A DNA stretch of 43,548 bases, taken from NCBI GenBank assembly GCA_016178585.1, contig JACOTA010000015.1, positions 1 to 43,548 on the forward strand, read 5' to 3'. The position numbers and the translations under genes are program-made. Each line of letters begins with the position of its first letter. Position 1 is the first letter of the stretch. Shown here piece after piece: positions 7,344-18,515 of the stretch. The notes beneath the pieces were generated by a model. That model was given only the letters and a program-made list of their open reading frames with translations, did not search any database and was not told where the DNA came from. This stretch comes from Nitrospirota bacterium (GTDB taxonomy: Bacteria > Nitrospirota > Nitrospiria > JACQBW01).

Positions 7344-8438
7344 TTAGCGTACCGCGATCCCTTGCGCAAACAGGGCGAATTGTCCATAGACAACCCCCAA
7401 ATTGCTCAAGCTCCCATCACGTTCGATACGGAACATATCCACGTTTCCGCTCCCAGGATCCAGGGCATAGAGAAAACGTCCGTCTGAGGTAATACCGAGG
7501 TCGAGCGGTTTATTGCCTCTCCTATCCGTAGCGTTCAAGAGCGACACTTGCCCGTTTTGGGGCATGAGGTTGTAGCTGGAGATCGTCCCACTGCCGGGAT
7601 TCGTAGTGAAGATATCACCCCGTTCGTTGCCCGCGATCCAGCAGGCCGCTTTCTGCCCATTGACCACCGATCCGCTGATCACCTGCAGAGTATCATTTGG
7701 AAGAATATTGTAAGTCGAAACAGCATCGGGACCTACTTCAACCACCACGAGGCGACCCCGCTCGTCAAAAATAAAACCGAAGGGGACTTTACCGTTTGAT
7801 GCCGAGGTGACCGGAGTCGCTGCGGGCAATCCGTCGTCGCTTACCGAGTAGACGATAATCTGACTTTCAGCTCTATCCGTCACCACCAACTTATTTCCCT
7901 CCGGGTCGAAACCGATCTGGGAAAACGCCCCGGTCGACACCAGCGATCGGGTGGAGTTCGACAGGGGAGTTAAATGGCCTCTCTGGCTCAAATTGAAACC
8001 TGTGATATTAGGAGATGGCCCGGCGTTTAGAACATAGACCAGGTTCTGGTCGACCGTCACGCTGACGGGAAATGTTCCTCCTGAAGCAACCTTATCCGCC
8101 AGTTCTAATCCATCCGGCAGGACCCGGAAGAGAGAGAGTTCATTGCTCCCTCCATTGACGGCAAGGAGCCATCTGTGATCGTGGCTCAGGACAAGGGAAT
8201 TCTGGGAAGCAAGCGGATCAAAACCGCCCCCTGAACCCTTTCCGCCTGTCAATACCGAACCAATGTTCGTTAGAATCCCTTCCTCGTCCCGGCTGAAAAC
8301 AACCACGCTGTTCCCGTTTGAAACGTTGGTCATACTGTAGACGGCCCCGACCGGGTTCGTGTTTTTTGCAAAAACGGTCATTGTGGAGATCATCAGCATC
8401 CCCACGCTTAATACGGTTGCTATAAACTTATGTTTCAT
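7344..8438 (-). CDS. Secreted beta-propeller protein, lactonase (6-phosphogluconolactonase-like) family
   Basis: 364 residues with a Sec signal peptide (FIATVLSVGMLMISTMTVFA). Seven-bladed propeller repeats follow: AVYSMTNVSNGNSVVVFSRDEEG, LVLSHDHRWLLAVNGGSNELSLFRV, PVSVTVDQNLVYVLNAGPSPNITGFNL, IGFDPEGNKLVVTDRAESQIIVYSV and LGITSDGRFLYALDPGSGNVDMFRI. This is the PF10282 lactonase pattern. The exported location argues against the cytosolic pentose pathway; such proteins may bind or hydrolyse lactones at the envelope. An AAGGAG site precedes the ATG. It follows the first Met-rich gene by 102 bp and may share its regulated promoter. Confidence 0.8.
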   Translation of the reverse strand: MKHKFIATVLSVGMLMISTMTVFAKNTNPVGAVYSMTNVSNGNSVVVFSRDEEGILTNIGSVLTGGKGSGGGFDPLASQNSLVLSHDHRWLLAVNGGSNELSLFRVLPDGLELADKVASGGTFPVSVTVDQNLVYVLNAGPSPNITGFNLSQRGHLTPLSNSTRSLVSTGAFSQIGFDPEGNKLVVTDRAESQIIVYSVSDDGLPAATPVTSASNGKVPFGFIFDERGRLVVVEVGPDAVSTYNILPNDTLQVISGSVVNGQKAACWIAGNERGDIFTTNPGSGTISSYNLMPQNGQVSLLNATDRRGNKPLDLGITSDGRFLYALDPGSGNVDMFRIERDGSLSNLGVVYGQFALFAQGIAVR

Positions 8439-8540: not shown

Positions 8541-8876
8541 CTATTTATCCATTTTCATTTCATCTTTCTTCATTTCACCTCCTTTCATGTCGTTTTCCAT
8601 CATCTTGTCGTCCCCTTTCATCATTCCATCTTTCTTCATCTCTTTTTTCTTCATCATCATCCCCTTTTTTTTCATTTCATTGCCTTGAGCAATCATTTCA
8701 ATCCCCTTCTTGATCATCTCATCAGCGCTCATCTTTTCGCTTTGCATCATTTCCCCTTTCTGGCCCTCCATCTTCATGCCTTCCGAATCCATTGCAAATG
8801 CCGGCAAAGTGGTCAATAACATCCCCATCAACGCTGCCGCTAATATTAACGGTCTTCTTTTTACTGCTGTTTCCAT
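8541..8876 (-). CDS. Exported methionine/lysine-rich small protein, copy 1
   Basis: 111 residues: a signal peptide ending LPAFA, then 83 mature residues containing 21 Met (about 25%) mixed with Lys, Glu, Asp and Gly. The mature chain has no Cys, His or aromatic residue. Blocks such as KKKGMMMKKKEMKK and a SADEMI motif are shared with the paralogue at 11450-11788. Such a chain can serve as an oxidisable Met reservoir repaired by Msr enzymes, or bind soft metals such as Cu(I)/Ag(I) by thioethers. The nearby msrB and dipZ genes favour the first reading (inference). It has its own promoter with three 11-bp repeats (8982-9014). Confidence 0.85.
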   Translation of the reverse strand: METAVKRRPLILAAALMGMLLTTLPAFAMDSEGMKMEGQKGEMMQSEKMSADEMIKKGIEMIAQGNEMKKKGMMMKKKEMKKDGMMKGDDKMMENDMKGGEMKKDEMKMDK

Positions 8877-8959
8877 CTGTTTCTCCTTTTATTAAATGAT
8901 TGGGTTGAATTTTTTAAGTTATTTTTCATGGATACGAAATCAATAACTTTGATGGAGTG

Positions 8960-9014
8960 ACTTTACCAACAGAGTGTGAAAAAAAAAATAAAGGGAGTAT
9001 GAAGAATTAATGAA
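8960..9014 (-). promoter_or_regulatory. Direct-repeat response-regulator promoter of Met-rich gene 1
   Basis: Reading the minus strand, TTCATTAATTC (9014-9004), TTCATACTCCC (9003-8993) and TTTATTTTTTT (8992-8982) form three adjacent 11-bp repeats. After 16 bp comes TAAAGT (8965-8960) as a -10 box. There is no -35 consensus. The same architecture occurs at four other places in the window. The leader to the ATG is about 75 bases. Confidence 0.75.
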
Positions 9015-9053
9015 GAAGGGTTCGAAGGTGAAGAAGAAATCTTTTTTTTGTAT

Positions 9054-9551
9054 CTACTGGCCAGGAACAAACTTTAATGCCGCTGAGTTAATACAATACC
9101 GTAAGCCAGTGGGAGGCGGTCCATCCTTGAATAAATGCCCCTGATGACCGCCGCACCGTCTGCAATGGACCTCGGTCCGGGGATAAAGTAATTTCCAGTC
9201 GGTCCGGGTCCGTACCGCCGACTCGCTTACCGGCTGCCAAAAGCTTGGCCAGCCGGTATGGCTGTCATACTTGGCCTCAGAGGAAAATAGGGGTAAATCA
9301 CATCCCGCGCAGAGGTAGATGCCATGAGCTTTATTGTTGAAATAGGCATTCTTAAAGGGGGGGTCTGTTGACTCCTTTCGTAGAACGTTGTACTGATCCG
9401 GGGTCAAAAGTGACCGCCACTCATCGTCTGTCCTGGTCATTTCAAAGGATTCGTCAGACTCACCCGATCGAACCAGTCGGGGCTTGACGGAAACGGCAAG
9501 AATTCCGACTCCCGCAACCAGGGTAGATTTAAGGAATGTTCTTCGATCCAT
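9054..9551 (-). CDS. msrB: Exported peptide-methionine (R)-S-oxide reductase MsrB
   Basis: 165 residues. The N-terminus DRRTFLKSTLVAGVGILAV is a twin-arginine signal, so the enzyme is exported folded. The MsrB domain shows Zn ligands C81-A-G-C84 and C130-R-R-C133, the substrate motif GWPSF (100-104), GGHQGH (134-139) and catalytic Cys153 in RYCINS. It reduces the R-epimer of methionine sulfoxide. The resolving cysteine usually sits near residue 100 and is not obvious, so thioredoxin-type reduction by DipZ may act directly. It follows dipZ by 75 bp and lies between two genes for Met-rich proteins, its likely substrates. Confidence 0.93.
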   Translation of the reverse strand: MDRRTFLKSTLVAGVGILAVSVKPRLVRSGESDESFEMTRTDDEWRSLLTPDQYNVLRKESTDPPFKNAYFNNKAHGIYLCAGCDLPLFSSEAKYDSHTGWPSFWQPVSESAVRTRTDWKLLYPRTEVHCRRCGGHQGHLFKDGPPPTGLRYCINSAALKFVPGQ

Positions 9552-9626
9552 TGGCCCTCCTGCTATTTAACTTTAAAAAAGATGGTTTCACCTGCATAGT
9601 CTTAAACTCGAGTAAATTAAATTTAT

Positions 9627-11393
9627 CTACCCAAATGTAAACGCGAAGAGCTTTACATTTGCTTTTTCAAAGAATAGTTCGAAGAGATGATCTCTTCCGT
9701 CGCTTTCTGAAAGCGCAACAAGATTGTACATTCTTGATTCGGAAATCCTGACTGTGCCGTCTGGTCCCACATCTTTCCCGCGAAACTCCGCAGGAATTGG
9801 TTTTCCATCCAGAAGAACTTTTGCGGTCAATTCTTTCTCTCCCGCGACCATGACCAGGTTGAGCTTTGGCGCGTTAAACCGGAATTGAACCGCGCCGTGC
9901 GGAGATTGGAGAACCGCGGCCTCTTTAGTGATTTTCCACAGACCTTTCAGCGCCCAGCGGTTCAGAGATAGTGTCGAGGGCGCCGTATAAGGCAAGGCGG
10001 AATCCGCCATCATTTTTTGAGGAGATGAAAAATGTTCCGTCCGTCCATACCCAAGGTAGGTTTCGTCCGAATGGATTTTTGTAAAATCAACCGAACTTTT
10101 TGGAGCCTCCAGCCTCATAGGTTTATGAAGAAGTTTTGCCTCGACTAATAGAGCCTGGATGGCTTGCTCAGTCTCATCAATATTACCTTCCCCAAAATGT
10201 TCTTCACGGATATTCCCCTGAACGTCGATTAAATAGTGCGCCGGCCAATATTGATTGTTATAGGCATTCCAGGTCCCATAATTATTGTCTATGGCAACCG
10301 GGTAATGGATGCCATGCCGGATGATCGCCTGTTTCACATTGGCTTCTTCTTTTTCAAAACTAAATTCCGGAGTATGCACCCCGACGACGACCAATCCCTG
10401 ATCTTTATACTTTTCGTACCATTTCGTGACGTAAGGAAGGGTTCGAATGCAATTGATACAGGAATAGGTCCAAAAATCCACCAGGACCACTTTTCCTCTC
10501 AAATCCATAGAGGTCAGACCAGGAGAATTAATCCATGTCGTAATCCCGGAAAATTCCGGCATCTTGCCCAAAACAGGCAACGGTATTTTTCCAGTCGAGG
10601 CCAGAACGACACCAGGTGAAAAGTTAGCTATGGGTGTAAAACCCGCGAGACGCGTCGAGGAATCATTTTTCCCCAGCAATTCTTTTTCAATCTTGTTGGT
10701 GATGAAAAATTGTCCGGGAAGGTGAGAAAGAAGCTGAGTATCAAGATTAAAGAAGAGACCAATGACCGTCGCGAGCGTCGTAAATCCAAAAAACCTGTGG
10801 AAAAATGGCCCCCACGAGCGAAACCTTTGAATTTGGCGAAAAATTCTCTGTCCCCCATAACCGATCAGGAGCATTGGGACAGCCGCTCCCAGAGCATATC
10901 CTCCCATCAAGAGGAGGGTATGTGTAAACGATCTCTGAACGGTTGCCAATGTAAGGACAATACCCAGGATCGGTCCTGCGCAGGGCGCCCAGATCAAACC
11001 CAACGATGCCCCGATCAGAAGGGAGGAGAGTCGGCCCTCTTCCGCAACGAACCGGTTAGTCCCTACAATCCTTTGCGCCATGGAACTGATTCGGCCTCCA
11101 ATTCCTTCCCAGAGCTTCGGCCATATCAATGTGAGGCCAAAGAAAAAGAGAATGACCAATGCCACTTTGCGGAGGAGGGAGTTGCTTAATCCCAGAATGC
11201 TTCCAAAGAGAGCAAAGGCCGTTCCGAATAAGGCAAAACTACTCGAAAGACCCAACACGATCCAGAAAGGACGGTGACGAAGGGGCGTCGAGACTGACGC
11301 GCTCAGAAGGGGTGGTAGAATGGGAAGAACGCAGGGACTTAACACCGTCATCAATCCAGCGAAAACCGATAATAACTCCAGAGTCCAATTCAT
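9627..11393 (-). CDS. dipZ: DipZ-type CcdA-thioredoxin fusion (electron carrier to the periplasm)
   Basis: 588 residues. Residues 1-220 are a CcdA/DsbD-beta-like membrane domain with its two redox cysteines in SPCVLP (C21) and WAPCAGP (C138). Residues 280-425 are a TlpA/thioredoxin-like domain with C312-I-N-C315 in WTYSCINCIRTLPY. Residues 430-588 form the beta-rich C-terminal domain seen in DipZ proteins. This family moves electrons from cytoplasmic thioredoxin across the membrane to extracytoplasmic thiol proteins. Directly upstream of the Tat-exported msrB and downstream of a Met-rich gene (56 bp), it is the natural reductant source for MsrB here. Confidence 0.92.
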   Translation of the reverse strand: MNWTLELLSVFAGLMTVLSPCVLPILPPLLSASVSTPLRHRPFWIVLGLSSSFALFGTAFALFGSILGLSNSLLRKVALVILFFFGLTLIWPKLWEGIGGRISSMAQRIVGTNRFVAEEGRLSSLLIGASLGLIWAPCAGPILGIVLTLATVQRSFTHTLLLMGGYALGAAVPMLLIGYGGQRIFRQIQRFRSWGPFFHRFFGFTTLATVIGLFFNLDTQLLSHLPGQFFITNKIEKELLGKNDSSTRLAGFTPIANFSPGVVLASTGKIPLPVLGKMPEFSGITTWINSPGLTSMDLRGKVVLVDFWTYSCINCIRTLPYVTKWYEKYKDQGLVVVGVHTPEFSFEKEEANVKQAIIRHGIHYPVAIDNNYGTWNAYNNQYWPAHYLIDVQGNIREEHFGEGNIDETEQAIQALLVEAKLLHKPMRLEAPKSSVDFTKIHSDETYLGYGRTEHFSSPQKMMADSALPYTAPSTLSLNRWALKGLWKITKEAAVLQSPHGAVQFRFNAPKLNLVMVAGEKELTAKVLLDGKPIPAEFRGKDVGPDGTVRISESRMYNLVALSESDGRDHLFELFFEKANVKLFAFTFG

Positions 11394-11449
11394 GATTTTC
11401 TCCTTTTCAACTCACCACTAAACATCATCGAGGATACTCGATCCACCGA

Positions 11450-11788
11450 TTATTTCCCCATCTCCTTCATCTTCATATCCTCCATTTTATCGCCTTTCAT
11501 TTCGTTTCCCTTCATCATCCCCTCTTCTTTCATCATTCCACCCTTTTTCATCTCTTTTTTCTTCATCATCATTCCCTTTTCTTTCATTTCTTTTCCCCGG
11601 GTCATCATCTCATCCCCCTTCATGATCATCTCATCGGCGCTCATTTGTCCGCTCTGCATCATTTTTTCTTTCCCGCTATCCATCTTCATGCTATCCGGAT
11701 CCATCGCATAAACCGGCAGACTGAGGAAGAGCATTCCGAGAAAAGCTATTGTCCAGAAGGAATGATTTAATTTTAAGATTTTTTTCAT
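11450..11788 (-). CDS. Exported methionine/lysine-rich small protein, copy 2
   Basis: 112 residues: a signal peptide ending LPVYA, then 84 mature residues with 24 Met (about 29%) and no Cys, His or aromatic residue. MMQSxxMSADEMI and EKGMMMKKKEMKK align directly with copy 1, so the two are paralogues. It is the first gene of an apparent operon with dipZ and msrB (gaps of 56 and 75 bp), transcribed from the repeat-bearing promoter at 11867-11920. A role as repairable oxidant sink or soft-metal binder is inferred from composition and neighbours. Confidence 0.87.
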   Translation of the reverse strand: MKKILKLNHSFWTIAFLGMLFLSLPVYAMDPDSMKMDSGKEKMMQSGQMSADEMIMKGDEMMTRGKEMKEKGMMMKKKEMKKGGMMKEEGMMKGNEMKGDKMEDMKMKEMGK

Positions 11789-11866
11789 GGGTTTCTCCTT
11801 TTTTGTTTGGGTTAGACTTCCTTTTTCCCTGTACTGGAAAAAGGCGCTTTTTATTTTACAGAAGTA

Positions 11867-11920
11867 ATCTTATCAGAAAATCTTGAAGGAAGAATAAAGG
11901 AAATATGAAGAGTTTATGAA
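11867..11920 (-). promoter_or_regulatory. Direct-repeat response-regulator promoter of Met-rich gene 2/dipZ/msrB
   Basis: On the minus strand TTCATAAACTC (11920-11910), TTCATATTTCC (11909-11899) and TTTATTCTTCC (11898-11888) lie head to tail. After exactly 15 bp comes TAAGAT (11872-11867), a good -10 box. No -35 consensus exists, so the site looks like an activator-dependent promoter with the regulator over the -35 position. Confidence 0.8.
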
Positions 11921-11931
11921 GAACCATTCAA

Positions 11932-13324
11932 TTAAAAAAACTGTTGCAAACCAAAAGTAAATCCAACCTGCTTGATCGGCTCTTGAGTCCAGGCGATATC
12001 CCCTCTTAGAATACCACGATAAACTCTCGGAAGAATAATCCGGAAACCGGTTCCAAACGTAATAAAGGGCTTGTCGAACCCGGCGACTGAAAAGCTTTTT
12101 CCATCCCATGTCTTCGCTAAATCGGCAAATAGATTTCCCTGGAGGATCCAGTTCGGGGTTTCCAAAAGTGTTGGACGGACCTCAAGATTAAACAGCCAGA
12201 AATGATCGCCGCGGAATTGTTTATCCAAAAATCCGCGGAGAGTATCCAATCCTCCCAGATAAAATTTATGCTGAAACTCATTGCCGGTCTTTGAACCGAC
12301 CTGAAACTGGGTGGCGACATTAAGTTTTTCCTCCGGACGGAATCCAGCATTCCAGCGCAATTCTCCTCTGACAAAATCAAAGTCTGATCCCAAAAAACGC
12401 TTGGCAACCTCTCCTTGTAAAGTGACCTCAGACCCCTCCACATAAAATTCATCTTTATTGACCTTTCCTAAAATGATCTGAGGTAAAAAGGAAACGGTAA
12501 GACCGGAGTTTAACGCCTCATTGCCGGCAAAAAGAGCGTTTCTAGTGTAGTGTCCGCTAAATAACTGGACAACTATTTATGATTATACCCCTCCCTTGAT
12601 GGGAGGGGTAGGGGAGGGTGAAAGGTGATCTGTTCCCCTCTCCCAGCCTCTCCCACAAGGGGAGAGGAGTCGTGTAATACTTACGGTATAGACTGAGACC
12701 AATCCCCGCGCGTACATTATCAGTTAGTTCTCTTAAAAACCGGGTATTCCATCTCACTTCTTCATTATCGAAATCCCCTTCTTCCACGCCTTCAGATGTA
12801 AACAGAGGCAAATTGATGGTATGAACATAAACCTCAGTTCCGAAATTATTTCTTCGGGAATAAAAATAGGGATGGCGGAACCAGGCAACACCACCACTTC
12901 TGCCGCTCATATTTTCATACTGCGCTCCAATCTCCAGAAGCCTGTCCAGGAAATTCACCTCATAGGCCCCTACGGTTAAAAGGGATGTTCCTCCGCCCTG
13001 TTTGTACTTAAAAATGGGAATTAAAGAAATCTTGTTTCTGAGATGAAAGTGAATGACCTGTTTCCCATTTTCTTCCTCCACTTCATGATGAAGATCATAA
13101 AAGAGCCCCGTATTTTTAATTCTTTGAATATCCCTTTTCCATGTCTCTGGATCAAATTCATTTTCTGCTGTTGTATCAAGAAGCTGGCGAACAACATTAG
13201 AGTGAGTCCTGGCTCCTTCAATTTCGACCTTTTCTACCGGAAAAGCTGAAACATCGATTGGAAAATATAAGACCCCTATTGAAAAAATGCAAAATAATAA
13301 TCTTTGATTATAATTGGTTATCAT
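11932..13324 (-). pseudogene. Omp85/BamA-like outer-membrane barrel gene, interrupted by a repeat insertion
   Basis: The N-terminal piece (13324-12557) has a signal peptide, a POTRA-like segment (VEKVEIEGARTHSNVVRQLL, then RDIQRIKNTGLFYDLHHEVE) and the first barrel strands. The C-terminal piece ends with GFTFGLQQFF, a barrel terminus of Omp85/D15 type. Between them the frame enters a GC-rich repeat (TTPLPLWERLGEG...) and stops. Removing the 127 bases between the GTGTA copies at 12545-12549 and 12672-12676 restores one continuous frame through YRKYYTRNALFAGN. The gene is therefore recently broken. Omp85-family proteins insert or translocate proteins at the outer membrane. Confidence 0.85.
12545..12676. 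mobile_element. Short non-coding palindromic element with 5-bp target duplication
   Basis: GTGTA at 12545-12549 and 12672-12676 flank 122 bases that hold two strong dyads: TACCCCTCCC/GGGAGGGGTA (12586-12610) and CCTCTCCC/GGGAGAGG (12647-12667). No coding capacity. It resembles the GC-rich repeats that give LPLWERLG-type peptides in many genomes. The flanking duplication and the clean repair of the host gene on removal show it inserted as a unit. Confidence 0.75.
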
Positions 13325-13350
13325 CTGAAAAGATTCATTGGTAAAATGGA

Positions 13351-13375
13351 GAAGGCCTGTTTAGAACAGGCCTTC
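13351..13375 (-). terminator. Hairpin terminator below the two-repeat secreted protein gene
   Basis: GAAGGCCTGTT (13351-13361) and AACAGGCCTTC (13365-13375) form a perfect 11-bp stem with a three-base loop. On the minus strand it is followed by TCCATTTT. The stem shares AAGGCCTGTT with the terminator of the spondin gene at 16508-16540. Confidence 0.65.
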
Positions 13376-13445
13376 TGATTAAATGTCATTTCTGACCAAG
13401 AATCGATGGTGTCATCGATTGACTTATCGGCCTGATTCTGATCTT

Positions 13446-14444
13446 TTATTTATCACCGTTGCCCGCGACCCGCACAATAGGGCAGTTGATGATTAACCCC
13501 GGCTCCGGAAGAAGTCTCATTTGCCCTATTCCAGCCAGGCGAAAAATCTCCTGCTCCGATTTAATAAGAGGATAAGCCTGGAATGACTGATTGGTAAATG
13601 TCACCGGCGCGATATCCCACATCGGGCTATAGTCTTTGTCGATATTTGATGGGCCTACCGGATTCGGCGCCGAATCTTCTACGTTTTTTTGCGCAGGGTT
13701 GGCACTGCCCACAAAAGGGTGAAGATCTGCTTCTGCTCCGCTTCCTCTCAGATTAACAAGCTTGGACACAAAGTTCGAACCATCCTGAACCGCCGCAGCC
13801 CTGTCAGAAGCATCTGTGCTAATATAGAAATTGACATGGCCATTTGCAAAACCTTTAATCAGCGGAAGCGTAATGGTCCCCTCTCCCTCAGCGGCCTCTT
13901 CAAGGTTAACTTCAAGCGCGCCAGGAAATGTTCCTGTGGAAGTAACCATGACGGGGCAGTTTACCACTATCGTGGTCGCCTGGACAATCACTTTACCGGC
14001 AGATTGAGCGTCCTGAATATCTGCTTCCGATTTCAATGTCACCGGCGTAAAACCTTTTTGCCAGGTTACCAAATGGATCAGCCAGAGAGGACTGTAGTCA
14101 GGATCGGTATTGTTTGGACCGACAGGATTCGGTACGGAATCCAGGATATTCGGCTGACTGAAGTTTGTGACATGGTACAAATCGGCTGTTCCCAATGCCC
14201 CGATTGCATTCACCAGTCTGGGAACATAGGTGGTCCCATCAGCGGCAGCCACAGCCGCATCGGAAGCTTCGGTATTGATGTAATAAATCATCTCCCCGTT
14301 AAAGAAACCTGGAACAAGGGGCATCGTTATCTTGGGAGCCGCAGACGCGCTGACAGGATAAGCCATTGAGACCAGAGCGATGATTCCCCCTAAAAATACG
14401 GCCGTTGAAAATACCCGAGCCAATCTAACTATGAAACGTTTCAT
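13446..14444 (-). CDS. Secreted protein with two tandem ~130-residue repeats
   Basis: 332 residues with a long signal peptide (to about residue 35, SASAA). Two homologous units follow (about 37-165 and 190-325). Each begins ITxPLxxGFxNG, contains TxASDxAAA, then PNPVGPxNxDxDYSPxW, then a hydrophobic V-T strand, and ends in a single cysteine as NCPxxxV. These are the only cysteines of the mature protein, one per unit. The layout recalls DUF7482-type secreted proteins, a family of unknown function (tentative). The gene has the direct-repeat promoter (14571-14624) and its own terminator. Confidence 0.75.
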   Translation of the reverse strand: MKRFIVRLARVFSTAVFLGGIIALVSMAYPVSASAAPKITMPLVPGFFNGEMIYYINTEASDAAVAAADGTTYVPRLVNAIGALGTADLYHVTNFSQPNILDSVPNPVGPNNTDPDYSPLWLIHLVTWQKGFTPVTLKSEADIQDAQSAGKVIVQATTIVVNCPVMVTSTGTFPGALEVNLEEAAEGEGTITLPLIKGFANGHVNFYISTDASDRAAAVQDGSNFVSKLVNLRGSGAEADLHPFVGSANPAQKNVEDSAPNPVGPSNIDKDYSPMWDIAPVTFTNQSFQAYPLIKSEQEIFRLAGIGQMRLLPEPGLIINCPIVRVAGNGDK

Positions 14445-14570
14445 ACTATCTCTCCTATATTTTATAAGGTTTAGGTGCTTTAAAAGACAACCGCATCCGC
14501 TGGACTAACCGCGATCCAGATTAAATTTATTTCTTGTTTAAAAAAGACGCTTTTGCTTTTTTCTGAAATG

Positions 14571-14624
14571 ATTCTACCGAAACATTTTGAAGGAAGAATA
14601 AAGGGAATATGAAGAGCTTATGAA
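14571..14624 (-). promoter_or_regulatory. Direct-repeat response-regulator promoter of the two-repeat secreted protein
   Basis: On the minus strand TTCATAAGCTC (14624-14614), TTCATATTCCC (14613-14603) and TTTATTCTTCC (14602-14592) are followed after 15 bp by TAGAAT (14576-14571). The box starts eight bases past the end of the histidine kinase gene, so the kinase operon and this gene are separately transcribed. Confidence 0.8.
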
Positions 14625-14631
14625 GAGTGCT

Positions 14632-15711
14632 TTACAGGGGAAGGGTAAACCAGACCTGAGTCTGACCGGATCTGCTCCTGGTTCCTACCTCTCCGCCATG
14701 AGCCTCAATAATCTGTTTTACAATGGCCAGTCCAATGCCTGCTCCGCCCCATTCACGCGACCGGGATTTTTCTCCCCGGTAAAACCGTTCAAAAATATGA
14801 GGCAGATCCTCCTCCGGAATTCCGGTTCCGCTGTTGGTGAAAAGAACCTTTAGCCGATTCCCTTCTCTCAGTAAATCAATAGCGGCCTTCCCTTCTTCAG
14901 GCGTATATTGCAGAACGTTCTGGATCAGGTTTTGAACAACCTGTATGATCTGATCGGTATCGGCGATAACGGGAATCGGCGCTCCATTCATTTTTAACCG
15001 AATCCTCTTTTGATCAAAACGGGTCTGCTCTTTTTGAACCAACCGCAGAATCAAGGGATAAAGATCAATCTGCTCTTTTTTCAGGACTCCTGTTTCGGAG
15101 TCAATCTGAGAAAGATGATGAAGCGCTTCAACCAGACGAACCAGCCGTAGGAGCTCTTCATGGAGGGAATCGATCGTCTCCCGTGACGGCTCCATTAAAC
15201 GGTCTTGAATCGCTTCCAGTTGGCCCCGCATATTATTGAGCGGGGTGCGAAGCTCATGGGCCACGTTGGCGACCAGTTCTTTTCTCATCCCCTCGATTTT
15301 TTCCAGGCTTTCCACCATTCGATTAAAAGCGAGTCCCAGGTCGCCAACCTCATCATGGGTGGTCACCTTGACCCGCTCGGAGTAATCCCCCTGCGCCAGC
15401 TTCCCCGTTACCCGGTTCATCTGAGTCAGAGAGCGCATGACCTGCTTGGTCATAAAGAAGCTGAGAAGCGTAACCACTCCGAGACCGAGAAACATCGAAA
15501 GGAGAAGAAACTGATGGGTGGTATGAAGAAACATGGCATGGAGGACCTTGGGGTCAATATTATATTGTTTCATCAGATCCATAAAGTAGCCCGCGGCCAG
15601 ATGATCAATCACCTGCCAGGCAAGAATAATGACAGTTCCGACCCCTAGAAGGTTAATCGCAACCAGTTTCCAGATCAGGCTGATTCTCGGGATTTGCATC
15701 TTATTCCTCAT
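14632..15711 (-). CDS. Sensor histidine kinase (HAMP, HisKA, HATPase)
   Basis: 359 residues. Two membrane segments (about 13-33 and 67-87) enclose a short loop of about 33 residues rich in Met and His (M44, M47, M60, H37, H58, H63, H66). A HAMP region follows (about 88-145), then HisKA with the phospho-acceptor H152 in VAHELRTPLNN, and an HATPase with the N box (NLIQNVLQYT), G boxes (GTGIPEEDL, GAGIGLAI) and F box. The ATG at 15711 overlaps the regulator stop. A 10-bp tandem duplication (15701-15720) also gives a second SD/ATG at 15699. The signal is unknown; the loop composition would suit a metal or oxidant sensor (inference). Confidence 0.9.
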   Translation of the reverse strand: MRNKMQIPRISLIWKLVAINLLGVGTVIILAWQVIDHLAAGYFMDLMKQYNIDPKVLHAMFLHTTHQFLLLSMFLGLGVVTLLSFFMTKQVMRSLTQMNRVTGKLAQGDYSERVKVTTHDEVGDLGLAFNRMVESLEKIEGMRKELVANVAHELRTPLNNMRGQLEAIQDRLMEPSRETIDSLHEELLRLVRLVEALHHLSQIDSETGVLKKEQIDLYPLILRLVQKEQTRFDQKRIRLKMNGAPIPVIADTDQIIQVVQNLIQNVLQYTPEEGKAAIDLLREGNRLKVLFTNSGTGIPEEDLPHIFERFYRGEKSRSREWGGAGIGLAIVKQIIEAHGGEVGTRSRSGQTQVWFTLPL

Positions 15712-16412
15712 TATTCCTCAGCGAATTGGTAACCGATTCCCCTGACCGTTTTAATATACCGGGGGCGCGCGGGATTTTTCTCGATCTTCTGCCGGAGATT
15801 TTTAATATGCACATCGACCGTTCGATCAAGGACGGTAGCCTCGCCTCCCGGATAAATTTCTTCCAGCAGGGCCTCGCGTGAATAGACCCGTCCGGGAACA
15901 GCCAATAGCGTTACCAAAAGTTTAAATTCGACGTGAGTCAGTTGCAACGGAACGCTGTTTAAAGTGACCTTGTGTTTTTCCGAATCGACCGCAAGACCTT
16001 GAAACGAAAATGTTTTAAGGGACCCCGCTCCTCTTCGTTGAAAACGGCGAAGAATCACCTTGACCCGGGCGACGATTTCTCTCGGGCTGAAAGGCTTGAC
16101 GACGTAGTCATCTGCGCCGATGGAAAGACCAACCAGTTTATCGATTTCTTCCACCTTGGCCGTCACCATCATAATCGGAACATCAGACTCCTGCCGGATC
16201 TTCTTACACACTTCTATGCCATCCAGCTTCGGAATCATCAGGTCGAGAAGGACAAAAACGGGCCGGCATTTCTTAAAGAGGGAAAGCGCGTCGATTCCGT
16301 TGTAGGCTTCGAAGGTCTGAAATCCCTCTTTTTGAAGATAGAGACTGAGGATTGAAGCCGTTTTTCGGTCATCCTCCACAATCAAAATTGAATCCTTCGG
16401 TGAGGCGGTCAT
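15711..16412 (-). CDS. OmpR/PhoB-family response regulator
   Basis: 233 residues. The receiver domain has D14/D15, the phosphorylation site D57 in VLLDLMIPKLDG, T83 region VTAK and K105 region VVKPFSPRE. The winged-helix DNA-binding domain (about 130-230) contains LTHVEFKLLVTLLAVPGRVYSREALL and a recognition helix near RTVDVHIKNLRQKI. This family binds tandem 11-bp direct repeats, exactly the architecture found at five promoters around the gene, so it is the likely activator. Its own promoter region shows a -10 (TATAAT, 16444-16439) without a clear repeat box. Confidence 0.93.
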   Translation of the reverse strand: MTASPKDSILIVEDDRKTASILSLYLQKEGFQTFEAYNGIDALSLFKKCRPVFVLLDLMIPKLDGIEVCKKIRQESDVPIMMVTAKVEEIDKLVGLSIGADDYVVKPFSPREIVARVKVILRRFQRRGAGSLKTFSFQGLAVDSEKHKVTLNSVPLQLTHVEFKLLVTLLAVPGRVYSREALLEEIYPGGEATVLDRTVDVHIKNLRQKIEKNPARPRYIKTVRGIGYQFAEE

Positions 16413-16507
16413 TTTTCTATCCCCAGGTTGCTTAGAAAATTATAACATGGCTTTGTGAAGATAAGAAGAGCCGAAGAAAAAGAAGGCCTCAAACGGGATA
16501 TCTCAGT

Positions 16508-16540
16508 CAAAAAAAGAGGAAGGCCAAAAACAGGCCTTCC
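16508..16540 (-). terminator. Rho-independent terminator of the spondin-domain gene
   Basis: On the minus strand GGAAGGCC (16540-16533) and GGCCTTCC (16525-16518) form a perfect 8-bp stem with a seven-base loop, followed by TCTTTTTTT. It isolates the spondin gene from the downstream response regulator gene. Confidence 0.85.
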
Positions 16541-16596
16541 CTTGAGAGAGTTAAATTTCCTCATAAAATTCCACCCGAGAATAAAAAAAGGATCGT

Positions 16597-17289
16597 TTAA
16601 GGGACACGCCGGATCGTAATTTCCGCCACCGGATTTCGCCAATCCCGTTGATCCGCCTTTAAATCTCCGATTCCATGAATTCCCCGGTGGATATGGACAA
16701 ATCCCTCAGCGCTATCCCTGCTCGCGTTAAATCCCTCTCCCTGGCAAATAAAAGGAGGACCTGGAATATGGGAACAAAGCTCATCATTTGCTTCTGTTCC
16801 GGCATCATATGCAGGGGCATAAAGGGTTAACGATTCATTTTCGTCAGGTCCTCTGACATCGTCAATCGAAAAGAAAGCATCATTGGTAGGAACCAACATC
16901 GCGGCAATACTTAGAGAATTGAAAAGATGATCAGTCCCGATCATAAGGGTTACAGATTGACCTGGAGGGAGTGGAGCGCCTGAATTGATAACTATTTTTA
17001 CTCCAGGATCGCTGGTCAAGAGGTTAGTGAGGGGAGCGACATTTCCCCCTTCAGCGAGAATTTCCAGTTCCACACTAGCCGGTTTTCCCAGAGTAAAAAG
17101 TTTCACTCCCGGTTGATGACTTGCCAGAAGGATAGGAGTAAAAATCTGACCGGAGGTAATATTGGTAATCGTGACTTCATATTTCCCGGCGCTTTTCCCC
17201 CCATATTCCTCCGCAAAACCTTTCACAGAATTAAAAGAAAACATTAACAGAACCAATACGCTAATACCCGTCGTTTGTATAAGCTTCAT
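16597..17289 (-). CDS. Secreted spondin-domain protein
   Basis: I take the ATG at 17289 (AAGGAG upstream), giving 230 residues with a signal peptide (TGISVLVLLMFSFNSVKGFA). The body is a bacterial spondin domain: YEVTITNITSGQIFTPILLASH at the front, LAEGGNVAPL, a central APLPPGQSVTLMI, AMLVPTNDAFFSI and the late metal-site region GFVHIHRGIHGIGDL. In this family the fold binds Ca2+ or other ligands on exported or surface proteins; bacterial roles are not established. Two cysteines (ELCSHIPGPPFIC) may form a disulfide. It is transcribed from the repeat promoter 17337-17390 and ends at a strong terminator. Confidence 0.85.
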   Translation of the reverse strand: MKLIQTTGISVLVLLMFSFNSVKGFAEEYGGKSAGKYEVTITNITSGQIFTPILLASHQPGVKLFTLGKPASVELEILAEGGNVAPLTNLLTSDPGVKIVINSGAPLPPGQSVTLMIGTDHLFNSLSIAAMLVPTNDAFFSIDDVRGPDENESLTLYAPAYDAGTEANDELCSHIPGPPFICQGEGFNASRDSAEGFVHIHRGIHGIGDLKADQRDWRNPVAEITIRRVP

Positions 17290-17336
17290 CGTGTTTCTCC
17301 TTATGATTATTAGGGTTAATTTTATTGACAAGACCG

Positions 17337-17390
17337 ATCATAAAATATATTTTTAAAGAAAAGATGAAGGGATGATGAAGATTTGAGGAA
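17337..17390 (-). promoter_or_regulatory. Direct-repeat response-regulator promoter of the spondin gene
   Basis: On the minus strand TTCCTCAAATC (17390-17380), TTCATCATCCC (17379-17369) and TTCATCTTTTC (17368-17358) are followed after 15 bp by TATGAT (17342-17337). The leader to the ATG at 17289 is about 40 bases. Confidence 0.8.
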
Positions 17391-17494
17391 GAATTGACCC
17401 GGCAATATGAACCAAAGAATGAACAGGCGGATTCTTTTTTGTTTTTGCGCTCCGGTCTGTTTTTCTTTTATAAACCTTTCCTTGGAATAAGCCT

Positions 17495-17863
17495 ATGACA
17501 ACAAAAGAACTTCTCGAAGCATATTACGATGGGCTTGCGCAAAAGAGCGGATGGGAATCCGTTATATCTGATGACTTCAAGTTCGTCGGTGGCGATATGA
17601 CAAAGACAACTCCGATTGTGGGCAAGTCGGCATACATTGAAGTCATCAAAAGATTCTCTCGATTATTCAAAACCATGCGGGTGAAAGAAATGATTGTGGA
17701 AGACGATAGAGCTTGCGTCCTTGCGAGCTATGACTATATATTTCCTAACGGCACCAGGATCAATGGTGATGTTGCAGAATTTTGGAAAGTAAAGGATGGG
17801 AAGCTTCATGCGCTGACGATATTTTTTGACACCTATACTTTTTCCGTTCTTACGAAAAAGTAA
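17495..17863 (+). CDS. NTF2-like (SnoaL-type) protein
   Basis: 122 residues, no signal peptide. TTKELLEAYYDGLAQKSGWESVISDDFKFVGGDM is the usual cone-fold start: helix, then the strand bearing an Asp. It is followed by the IEVIKRFSRLFKTMRVKEMIVEDDRACVLASYDYIFPNG strand order and FWKVKDGKLHALTIFFD. Cytosolic; the family includes small-molecule isomerases and binding proteins, and the substrate is unknown. It lies 15 bp before the TfoX-N gene and is probably co-transcribed with it. Confidence 0.75.
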   Translation: MTTKELLEAYYDGLAQKSGWESVISDDFKFVGGDMTKTTPIVGKSAYIEVIKRFSRLFKTMRVKEMIVEDDRACVLASYDYIFPNGTRINGDVAEFWKVKDGKLHALTIFFDTYTFSVLTKK

Positions 17864-17878
17864 ATCAATTATCGTATT

Positions 17879-18214
17879 ATGGCATACAACGAAAAATTAA
17901 CCAATAGAGTCAGAGAGGCGCTTGCGCATTTGTCGAAAGTGGAAGAAAAGAAGATGTTTCGTGGCGTGACTTTTATGGTAAATGGAAAAATGTGTGTCAG
18001 CGTTGGTGACGATGAAATGATGTGTCGCATTGACCCTGCACTACACGAAGAAGCAATGAAGAGAAAAGGTTGCCGGACGATGGAAATGAAAGGAAGAGAA
18101 TATAAAGGATATGTTCTCATCAAAGAAGAAGGGATGAAAAACAAGAAGGATTTTGGCTTTTGGATCGGGCTTGCGCTTGACTTTAATAAGAGGGCAAAAG
18201 CAACCAGGAAATAA
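17879..18214 (+). CDS. TfoX N-terminal-domain protein
   Basis: 111 residues with the stand-alone TfoX/Sxy N-domain signature: VREALAHLSKVEEKKMFRGVTFMVNGKMCVSVGDDEMMCRIDP, then KGYVLIKEEG. It lacks the C-terminal TfoX domain, which occurs as a separate gene at 41271-41531. Full TfoX regulates competence in some gammaproteobacteria; stand-alone N-domains have no established role. Downstream of it, transcribed towards it, lies an orphan repeat promoter (18381-18434). Confidence 0.85.
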   Translation: MAYNEKLTNRVREALAHLSKVEEKKMFRGVTFMVNGKMCVSVGDDEMMCRIDPALHEEAMKRKGCRTMEMKGREYKGYVLIKEEGMKNKKDFGFWIGLALDFNKRAKATRK

Positions 18215-18515
18215 AGTCCGGATTAAAGTTTTTTTGAATTCCTCCTGGGGGGCGCGTAGCGCGCGGGAGACGCTAGTCAGCATCATCGGGGTTGGTTTCA
18301 AAGGTCTGAAACCCCTCATAAAAATTCCACCCGAGAGTAGAAAAAGGATCATTTAAGACATACTTTTATTGACAAGCCAAATCATAAAATATGTTTTTAA
18401 AGAAGAGATAAAGGGATGATGAAGATTTGAGGAATAAAACCGGTAAACTGACAGAGGCAGGGATCTCATACGACCATAACGCCTGTCGTTGCCGGATAAA
18501 AAAGCTTAAACCACT
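18215..18515. other. Gene-free stretch holding a decayed duplicate of the spondin locus
   Basis: It has no open frame of note. It holds a GC-rich hairpin region (18251-18275), a GGTTTCA/TGAAACC stem (about 18294-18312), the spondin-locus remnant (next entry) and the end of the zinc-finger gene. Confidence 0.55.
18314..18434 (-). repeat. Remnant copy of the spondin gene's flanks, including its promoter
   Basis: Bases 18314-18358 match 16559-16602 (3' end and downstream region of the spondin gene) and 18366-18434 match 17324-17391 (its promoter), each with a handful of differences. The roughly 720 bp of gene between them is missing. The promoter part keeps TTCCTCAAATC, TTCATCATCCC, TTTATCTCTTC (18434-18402), 15 bp and TATGAT (18386-18381). 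An ancestral duplicate therefore lost its coding part but kept its control element. Confidence 0.8.

Follow-up and report, generated by a model that had tools for sequence, protein, structure and literature searches.

A methionine-rich, locally regulated gene block of a Nitrospirota bacterium as a probable periplasmic oxidant sink with its own repair line

The Brucella MXKDX protein, which is encoded together with MsrPQ-like proteins, is induced by HOCl and contributes to HOCl resistance; the same source describes the Azospira homologue as a hypochlorite scavenger acting via sacrificial oxidation (PMC8315932). Exported methionine sulfoxide reductases (Msr) of the MsrA and MsrB types have been noted in perchlorate islands (PMC4623255). 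In pneumococcus CcdA and an extracytoplasmic thioredoxin reduce the exported MsrAB (PMC3914529), and in Fusobacterium nucleatum a two-component system encoded with MsrAB, Trx and CcdA is peroxide-induced (PMC9239216). Here we analyze a gene block which brings such parts together. It lies on contig JACOTA010000015.1 (assembly GCA_016178585.1) of a groundwater-type Nitrospirota bacterium (JACQBW01) with a genome of 2.45 Mb; the whole stretch of 43,548 nt that was analyzed is called the window. The block encodes two methionine-rich (Met-rich) exported proteins, termed MR1 and MR2, an exported MsrB, a membrane electron carrier of the DipZ type and a two-component system. We suggest that it is probably a methionine-based oxidant sink which is locally regulated and includes genes for its own repair.

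The genes are transcribed in the order MR1, DipZ, MsrB, MR2 and lactonase-type propeller (Table 1). As already read from the sequence, MsrB and DipZ are thus encoded between the two Met-rich genes. MR1 and MR2 are paralogues with 54% identity (BLASTP E = 2e-15). Met makes up 24 of the 84 residues of mature MR1 (28.6%) and 21 of the 83 residues of mature MR2 (25.3%), and Cys, His, Trp, Tyr and Phe are all absent from both near-neutral proteins. This bears out the sequence-only reading, which had described two paralogous exported proteins with 25-29% Met and neither Cys, His nor aromatic residues. In the own-genome sequence examined, the runner-up among open reading frames (ORFs) of at least 60 amino acids (aa) has 9% Met, a third paralogue (MR3, see below) being set aside. 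AlphaFold models MR1, at low confidence (predicted local distance difference test score 59), without a folded domain: a short helix separates the signal helix from a single long one. Across the homologues Met is the best-kept residue (86% of aligned pairs, against 67% for Lys and at most 63% for the rest). Low-complexity sequence close to a broken Omp85-like gene and a promoter remnant could also be an artefact or the trace of decaying genes which yield no real proteins. We consider this most improbable, as six homologues from four genomes have all kept the signal peptide, the reading frame and a sequence like a ribosome-binding site, and five of the six are preceded by the box described below.

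Table 1. Features of the gene block and its surroundings in the window
Feature	Position	Strand	Basis
MR1, Sec-exported Met-rich protein, 112 aa (mature 84 aa)	11450..11788	-	sequence, AlphaFold model
DipZ: DsbD/CcdA-type membrane domain, thioredoxin domain, C-terminal Thioredoxin_10	9627..11393	-	domain search, structure match
Tat-type MsrB, one-Cys form	9054..9551	-	TIGR00357, cysteine pattern
MR2, MR1 paralogue, 111 aa (mature 83 aa)	8541..8876	-	sequence, comparison with carrier genomes
Exported 7-bladed beta-propeller, PF10282 lactonase family	7344..8438	-	domain search
OmpR-family response regulator, proposed activator of the unit	15711..16412	-	profile matches, orthologs
Histidine kinase, overlaps regulator gene	14632..15711	-	profile matches
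Box (TCTTCATnnnnTCTTCATnnnnCCTTTATnnnnCCTTCA) before MR1-DipZ, proposed regulator site	11884..11922	-	repeat analysis, genome search
Box before MR2-lactonase	8989..9016	-	repeat analysis, genome search
Box before DUF7482 gene	14588..14626	-	repeat analysis, genome search
Box before spondin-domain gene	17354..17392	-	repeat analysis, genome search
Exported protein with two DUF7482 stretches, behind box	13446..14444	-	domain search
Exported spondin-domain protein, likely start ATG at 17289	16597..17331	-	domain search, homologue

The MsrB protein clearly passes the TIGR00357 model (172.9 bits, cut-off 113.05). Its N-terminus, MDRRTFLKS, carries the twin arginine, with the Pfam TAT_signal match below cut-off (18.0 against 22.7 bits). 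The only five Cys are Cys81, Cys84, Cys130 and Cys133 of the zinc pattern and the catalytic, conserved Cys153 (RYCIN). Only some MsrB have a resolving Cys at the position where it is found in human MsrB2 (KYCSGTGWPSF). The window's protein has Asp at this place (KYDSHTGWPSF) and Asp or Glu stands there in all four orthologs, and the enzyme is therefore of the one-Cys type. MsrB of this type can take electrons directly from a thioredoxin-type donor. Such a donor may be DipZ, which has a membrane part matching DsbD_TM with the Cys motifs SPCVLP and WAPCAGP, a thioredoxin domain (Redoxin/AhpC match) with its CxxC in WTYSCINC and a C-terminal Thioredoxin_10 domain; it matches the DipZ of M. tuberculosis (2hyx, E = 4e-64) including the C-terminal domain. 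DipZ, which is encoded together with MsrB, would pass its electrons to this enzyme.

How does the block compare with the described systems? Like MrpX/BcrX with YedYZ/MsrPQ in Azospira and Brucella, it places a small Sec-exported protein rich in Met, Lys, Asp and Glu beside a periplasmic methionine sulfoxide reductase and a dedicated regulator. However, the repeat of MR1 and MR2 is looser, they are coupled to MsrB and DipZ and not to a molybdoenzyme, and a two-component system takes the place of SigF/NrsF; the layout of a Met-rich gene next to MsrP/MsrQ under an extracytoplasmic function (ECF) sigma factor is thus not found at MR1 and MR2. Both proteins have the traits of the penta_MxKDx/MrpX family TIGR02953 in being exported, Met-rich and free of Cys. 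Strict membership was rejected because all Met-rich homologues stay below the cut-off of 41 bits (MR1 no hit, MR2 18.2, MR3 29.3, the others 15.6-23.7). A Methylobacterium protein reaches 72.8 bits; it is encoded on plasmid NZ_CP099614 in the contiguous order MXKDX, sigma factor, NrsF, MsrB, MsrA, cytochrome b and molybdoenzyme. This cluster shares with the window a Met-rich protein and an exported-type MsrB (49% identity between the two MsrB), but it is under ECF/NrsF control, includes MsrA and the molybdoenzyme and has no DipZ. With the CcdA-Etrx-MsrAB2 system of Streptococcus pneumoniae (PMC3914529) the block has in common a membrane CcdA domain and an extracytoplasmic thioredoxin co-encoded with an exported Msr. 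In the window, however, DipZ unites both in one protein and adds a further C-terminal domain, and the unit has MsrB only, together with a co-encoded candidate substrate. The ModRS-MsrAB-Trx-CcdA locus of F. nucleatum likewise joins a two-component system to Msr, thioredoxin and CcdA; its abstract describes no Met-rich protein there, and ModR has a large regulon (PMC9239216), whereas the box in the window is limited to its own locus.

The sequence-only reading had recognized no described system with this combination. For Met-rich proteins with MsrB, DipZ and a two-component system this stands within our searches, to which Proteobacterial chromosomes did not belong. It is too broad for the pairings within it, as the Methylobacterium plasmid combines a Met-rich protein with exported MsrB, MsrA and molybdoenzyme, and Msr fed by CcdA and thioredoxin have been published (PMC3914529, PMC9239216). 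In the literature DipZ and methionine sulfoxide reductase are co-mentioned in a Salmonella CpxR study, with a single mention each. Thus, each part is already known, and the combination and its private two-component switch look new.

We searched 270 genomes of the class for the Met-rich family and found it in only four, which belong to two families, with six homologues in total: three in the window's genome and one in each of the other carriers, here labelled G001, G006 and G011. One of these is a groundwater Nitrospirae metagenome-assembled genome. An alignment of the family matched one named relative among genome contigs (G001, JACQBY010000035); a plasmid search with MR1 gave no match. In this whole-genome search no Met-rich copy is farther than about 250 bp from a gene which encodes MsrB, DipZ or the cytochrome b561 partner of a molybdoenzyme. 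The core of DipZ, MsrB, Met-rich protein and lactonase is kept in all four carriers, the lactonase gene always following a Met-rich gene, and the position of MR2 is the site of the sole copy in the other three. The arrangement of the window thus recurs in three more genomes and is hardly due to chance. Regulator and kinase are encoded directly upstream of the core in G001 and G011; in G006 they are on a second contig which ends inside DipZ. The regulator ortholog adjoins the unit in the loci L011 and L012 and in the split locus L054. Peculiar to the window's genome are the extra Met-rich copy between box and DipZ and, separating this box from the kinase, genes for DUF7482 and Omp85-like proteins. 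In G011 a peroxiredoxin-family gene follows the lactonase.

A further argument for a common unit is the box, a set of 11-bp-phased direct repeats (TCTTCATnnnnTCTTCATnnnnCCTTtAtnnnnCCTTCA) with a TAAGAT/TAAAAT-like element downstream. It precedes the genes for MR1, MR2, the DUF7482 protein and the spondin protein, with four sets each before MR1 and DUF7482. Genome-wide, the pattern YCTTCAYNNNNYCTTCAYNNNNYCTTYA is hit nine times with up to two mismatches. These hits share one strand and a single stretch of 9.4 kb (8989 to 18436 of the contig); the reversed pattern is hit once. The 15 hits in G001, G006 and G011 (at most one mismatch) all precede genes of this locus, namely those for DipZ, the Met-rich protein or the regulator, and there are none in three relatives without the unit. 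MR3 has no box and adjoins a sigma factor instead. Genome G035, which is not among the Met-rich carriers, encodes a homologous two-component system (locus L139, 9860-12219). Its regulator is 59% identical, and the same box stands there in front of the gene for an exported protein of 742 aa. Since regulator homologue and box also stand together there, the box appears tied to this regulator, which is predicted to contact it. A scan for consensus promoters and terminators gave background level. The sequence-only reading named the parts of the unit correctly but drew it too small: the two-component system, the lactonase gene and the shared box belong to it as well, and in this genome the box extends to the DUF7482 and spondin genes.

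The main rival to an oxidant sink is copper handling. The Met-rich proteins would bind periplasmic Cu(I)/Ag(I) like CopM/CusF-type carriers, the two-component system would sense the metal, and MsrB and DipZ would keep the Met reduced. Sites made of Met only are able to bind soft metals, and the kinase, with an extracytoplasmic loop of about 30 residues, keeps Met and His in the motifs YFM..LM and LH..FL..TH. The box, TTCATN6TTCAT, resembles the Synechocystis CopR site TTCATN4-5TTCAT (PMC4182526), with the wider spacing in the box. Copper induces MsrPQ of E. coli, which repairs CusF (PMC9302797), and on a Paraburkholderia plasmid a related cytochrome b/molybdoenzyme pair has cueR and a metal P-type ATPase in its vicinity (L080, 4139-10085). 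Yet kinase and regulator stay below the cut-offs of the heavy-metal two-component models (194.7 against 292.55 bits for TIGR01386, 155.5 against 279.2 for TIGR01387), and no metal gene is found among the box targets of the whole genome. By the ORF lists, carrier neighbourhoods hold no ORF of the size of a metal P-type ATPase or a resistance-nodulation-division pump (largest 531-619 aa, L010-L012), and the sole window ORF above 620 aa encodes a 1239-aa regulator-like protein. Neighbourhoods which pair the Met-rich genes with metal efflux only, named beforehand as one outcome that would refute the oxidant trap, were accordingly not seen among the carrier loci. Also the spacing of Met does not fit, as too few Met pairs are spaced i+3 or i+4 and too many i+5, as in MXKDX proteins; the i+5 excess is seen in six of six homologues without a strict repeat (z 1.9-3.5; 7.7 in a true MXKDX protein). 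Taken together we regard metal binding as rather unlikely to be the function of the block.

MR3, the third paralogue, is encoded on another contig (C66) and is 79% identical to the single copy of G001. Its gene is followed by those for a cytochrome b561 (PF01292) and a Tat-type molybdoenzyme and preceded by an ECF sigma factor and an anti-sigma factor, a layout that resembles Azospira and Brucella; the molybdoenzyme scores 99.2 bits against an MsrP cut-off of 207. An exported MsrA is encoded 3.5 kb downstream. The genome therefore has two MsrA and two MsrB, one of each exported. The statement that the window contains no MsrA still holds, but the gap which it implied does not extend to the genome: judging by their genes, exported MsrA and the molybdoenzyme/cytochrome b561 pair could cover the S-sulfoxides. 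We note that near-identical gene blocks stand beside MR3 (L009, 1547-3204) and beside the two-component/Met-rich locus of G001 (L012, 5441-7098), which suggests recent exchange between genera.

Met-rich proteins meet Msr genes in other layouts as well. In G022 an exported protein with Met-rich ends and 13% Met, termed MRalt, is encoded first in an apparent operon that also holds MsrA, MsrB and a TlpA-like thioredoxin, next to a divergent ECF sigma factor. In G028 a spondin gene, whose product is 47% identical to that of the window, precedes MRalt (15% Met), an MsrA remnant, MsrB, cytochrome b561 and molybdoenzyme. MRalt shares no family hit with MR1 or MR2, and no relationship was detected. 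DipZ adjoins the molybdoenzyme pair in G020 and in Alphaproteobacteria is found near organic hydroperoxide resistance genes. The recurrence of such layouts supports sacrificial Met oxidation with repair by Msr, and the neighbourhood data, as far as gene order can tell, all point to exported methionine and its repair. We set aside as noise a few ORFs of unrelated loci which are very short (47-66 aa) and have 12-15% Met. The MsrA remnant of G028 is short and in frame (L119, 2558-2719), the molybdoenzyme pair being present.

Several observations weigh against a self-repairing sink. MsrB reduces the R-sulfoxide only. G006, which is 98% complete, has just one MsrA, without an obvious signal peptide, although it does have the molybdoenzyme pair. 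No chlorite dismutase was found in the window's genome, and therefore no internal source of hypochlorite is evident. The lactonase, DUF7482 and spondin proteins are unexplained by the model. Furthermore, a Met-rich neighbour is present in just two (G022, G028) of the 44 other exported-type MsrB loci of the class. The association thus runs from Met-rich protein to Msr and not in reverse, and exported MsrB was rejected as a general marker of Met-rich proteins. This rarity, together with a box common to several unrelated exported proteins, would also suit a simpler arrangement, in which MsrB and DipZ repair ordinary envelope proteins and the Met-rich proteins are merely co-regulated, for example as a Met/charge reservoir, a matrix or chaperone-like proteins. 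The constant proximity of all family members to Msr-type, DipZ or partner-cytochrome genes, shared by the second Met-rich family, argues against it, and we consider it improbable. A Met-rich sink recharged by MsrB and DipZ therefore appears, on the evidence of the genes, to be the best explanation of the unit. Compared with the sequence-only reading this explanation has gained independent support from comparative genomics; the unit is larger, its combination less novel, and an S-epimer reductase exists elsewhere in the genome.

We suggest that the sink could operate in the following steps. Envelope stress, most likely an oxidant reaching the periplasm, would activate the histidine kinase. The response regulator would then bind the direct repeats and turn on MR1-DipZ-MsrB, MR2-lactonase and the accessory exported proteins. 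The Met-rich proteins, presumably mostly unstructured or helical, would be oxidized instead of important envelope proteins, and the Tat-exported MsrB would reduce their R-sulfoxides. DipZ would move electrons from a cytoplasmic donor, presumably thioredoxin, across the membrane to its periplasmic thioredoxin domain, which in turn would re-reduce MsrB. The S-sulfoxides might be left to the exported MsrA and the molybdoenzyme/cytochrome b561 pair by MR3, under the ECF sigma factor. Each step has a precedent in the literature, and the most likely mechanism is therefore a locally switched sink which MsrB and DipZ recharge.

More tentatively, and with considerable doubt, one may think of a closed methionine redox loop. 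The kinase with its Met/His loop would sense the Met or oxidant status of the periplasm, the Met-rich proteins would turn over repeatedly via the one-Cys MsrB and the thioredoxin-powered DipZ, and such loops would have been assembled more than once in one class with unrelated Met-rich proteins. The oxidant sink itself would add to the known methionine-based defence by ECF/molybdoenzyme systems a form that is powered by thiols and has a two-component switch of its own. As exported Met-rich proteins recur with Msr repair genes in several arrangements and a second Met-rich family takes part, the sink hypothesis can be tested by comparing parts of separate origin, and the compact box with its few targets offers a ready reporter for the natural oxidant of this uncultured lineage.

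Some minor features of the window remain to be described. The DUF7482 gene appears to be accessory, as it is present at the locus only in the window's genome. At 18300-18436 (minus strand) there is a fifth box. The sequence with it resembles both ends of the spondin gene region, its start and its 3' end, but encloses no spondin ORF, so that a second spondin copy appears to have been deleted. An Omp85/POTRA-type gene at 11932-13324 (minus strand) is broken into two ORFs, the first half ending in PLPLWERLGEGNRSPFTLPYPSHQGRG, which resembles a short inserted repeat. Near the contig end, 42058-43206 (minus strand) encodes a methyltransferase which resembles arsenite methyltransferase and has a Cys-rich C-terminus.

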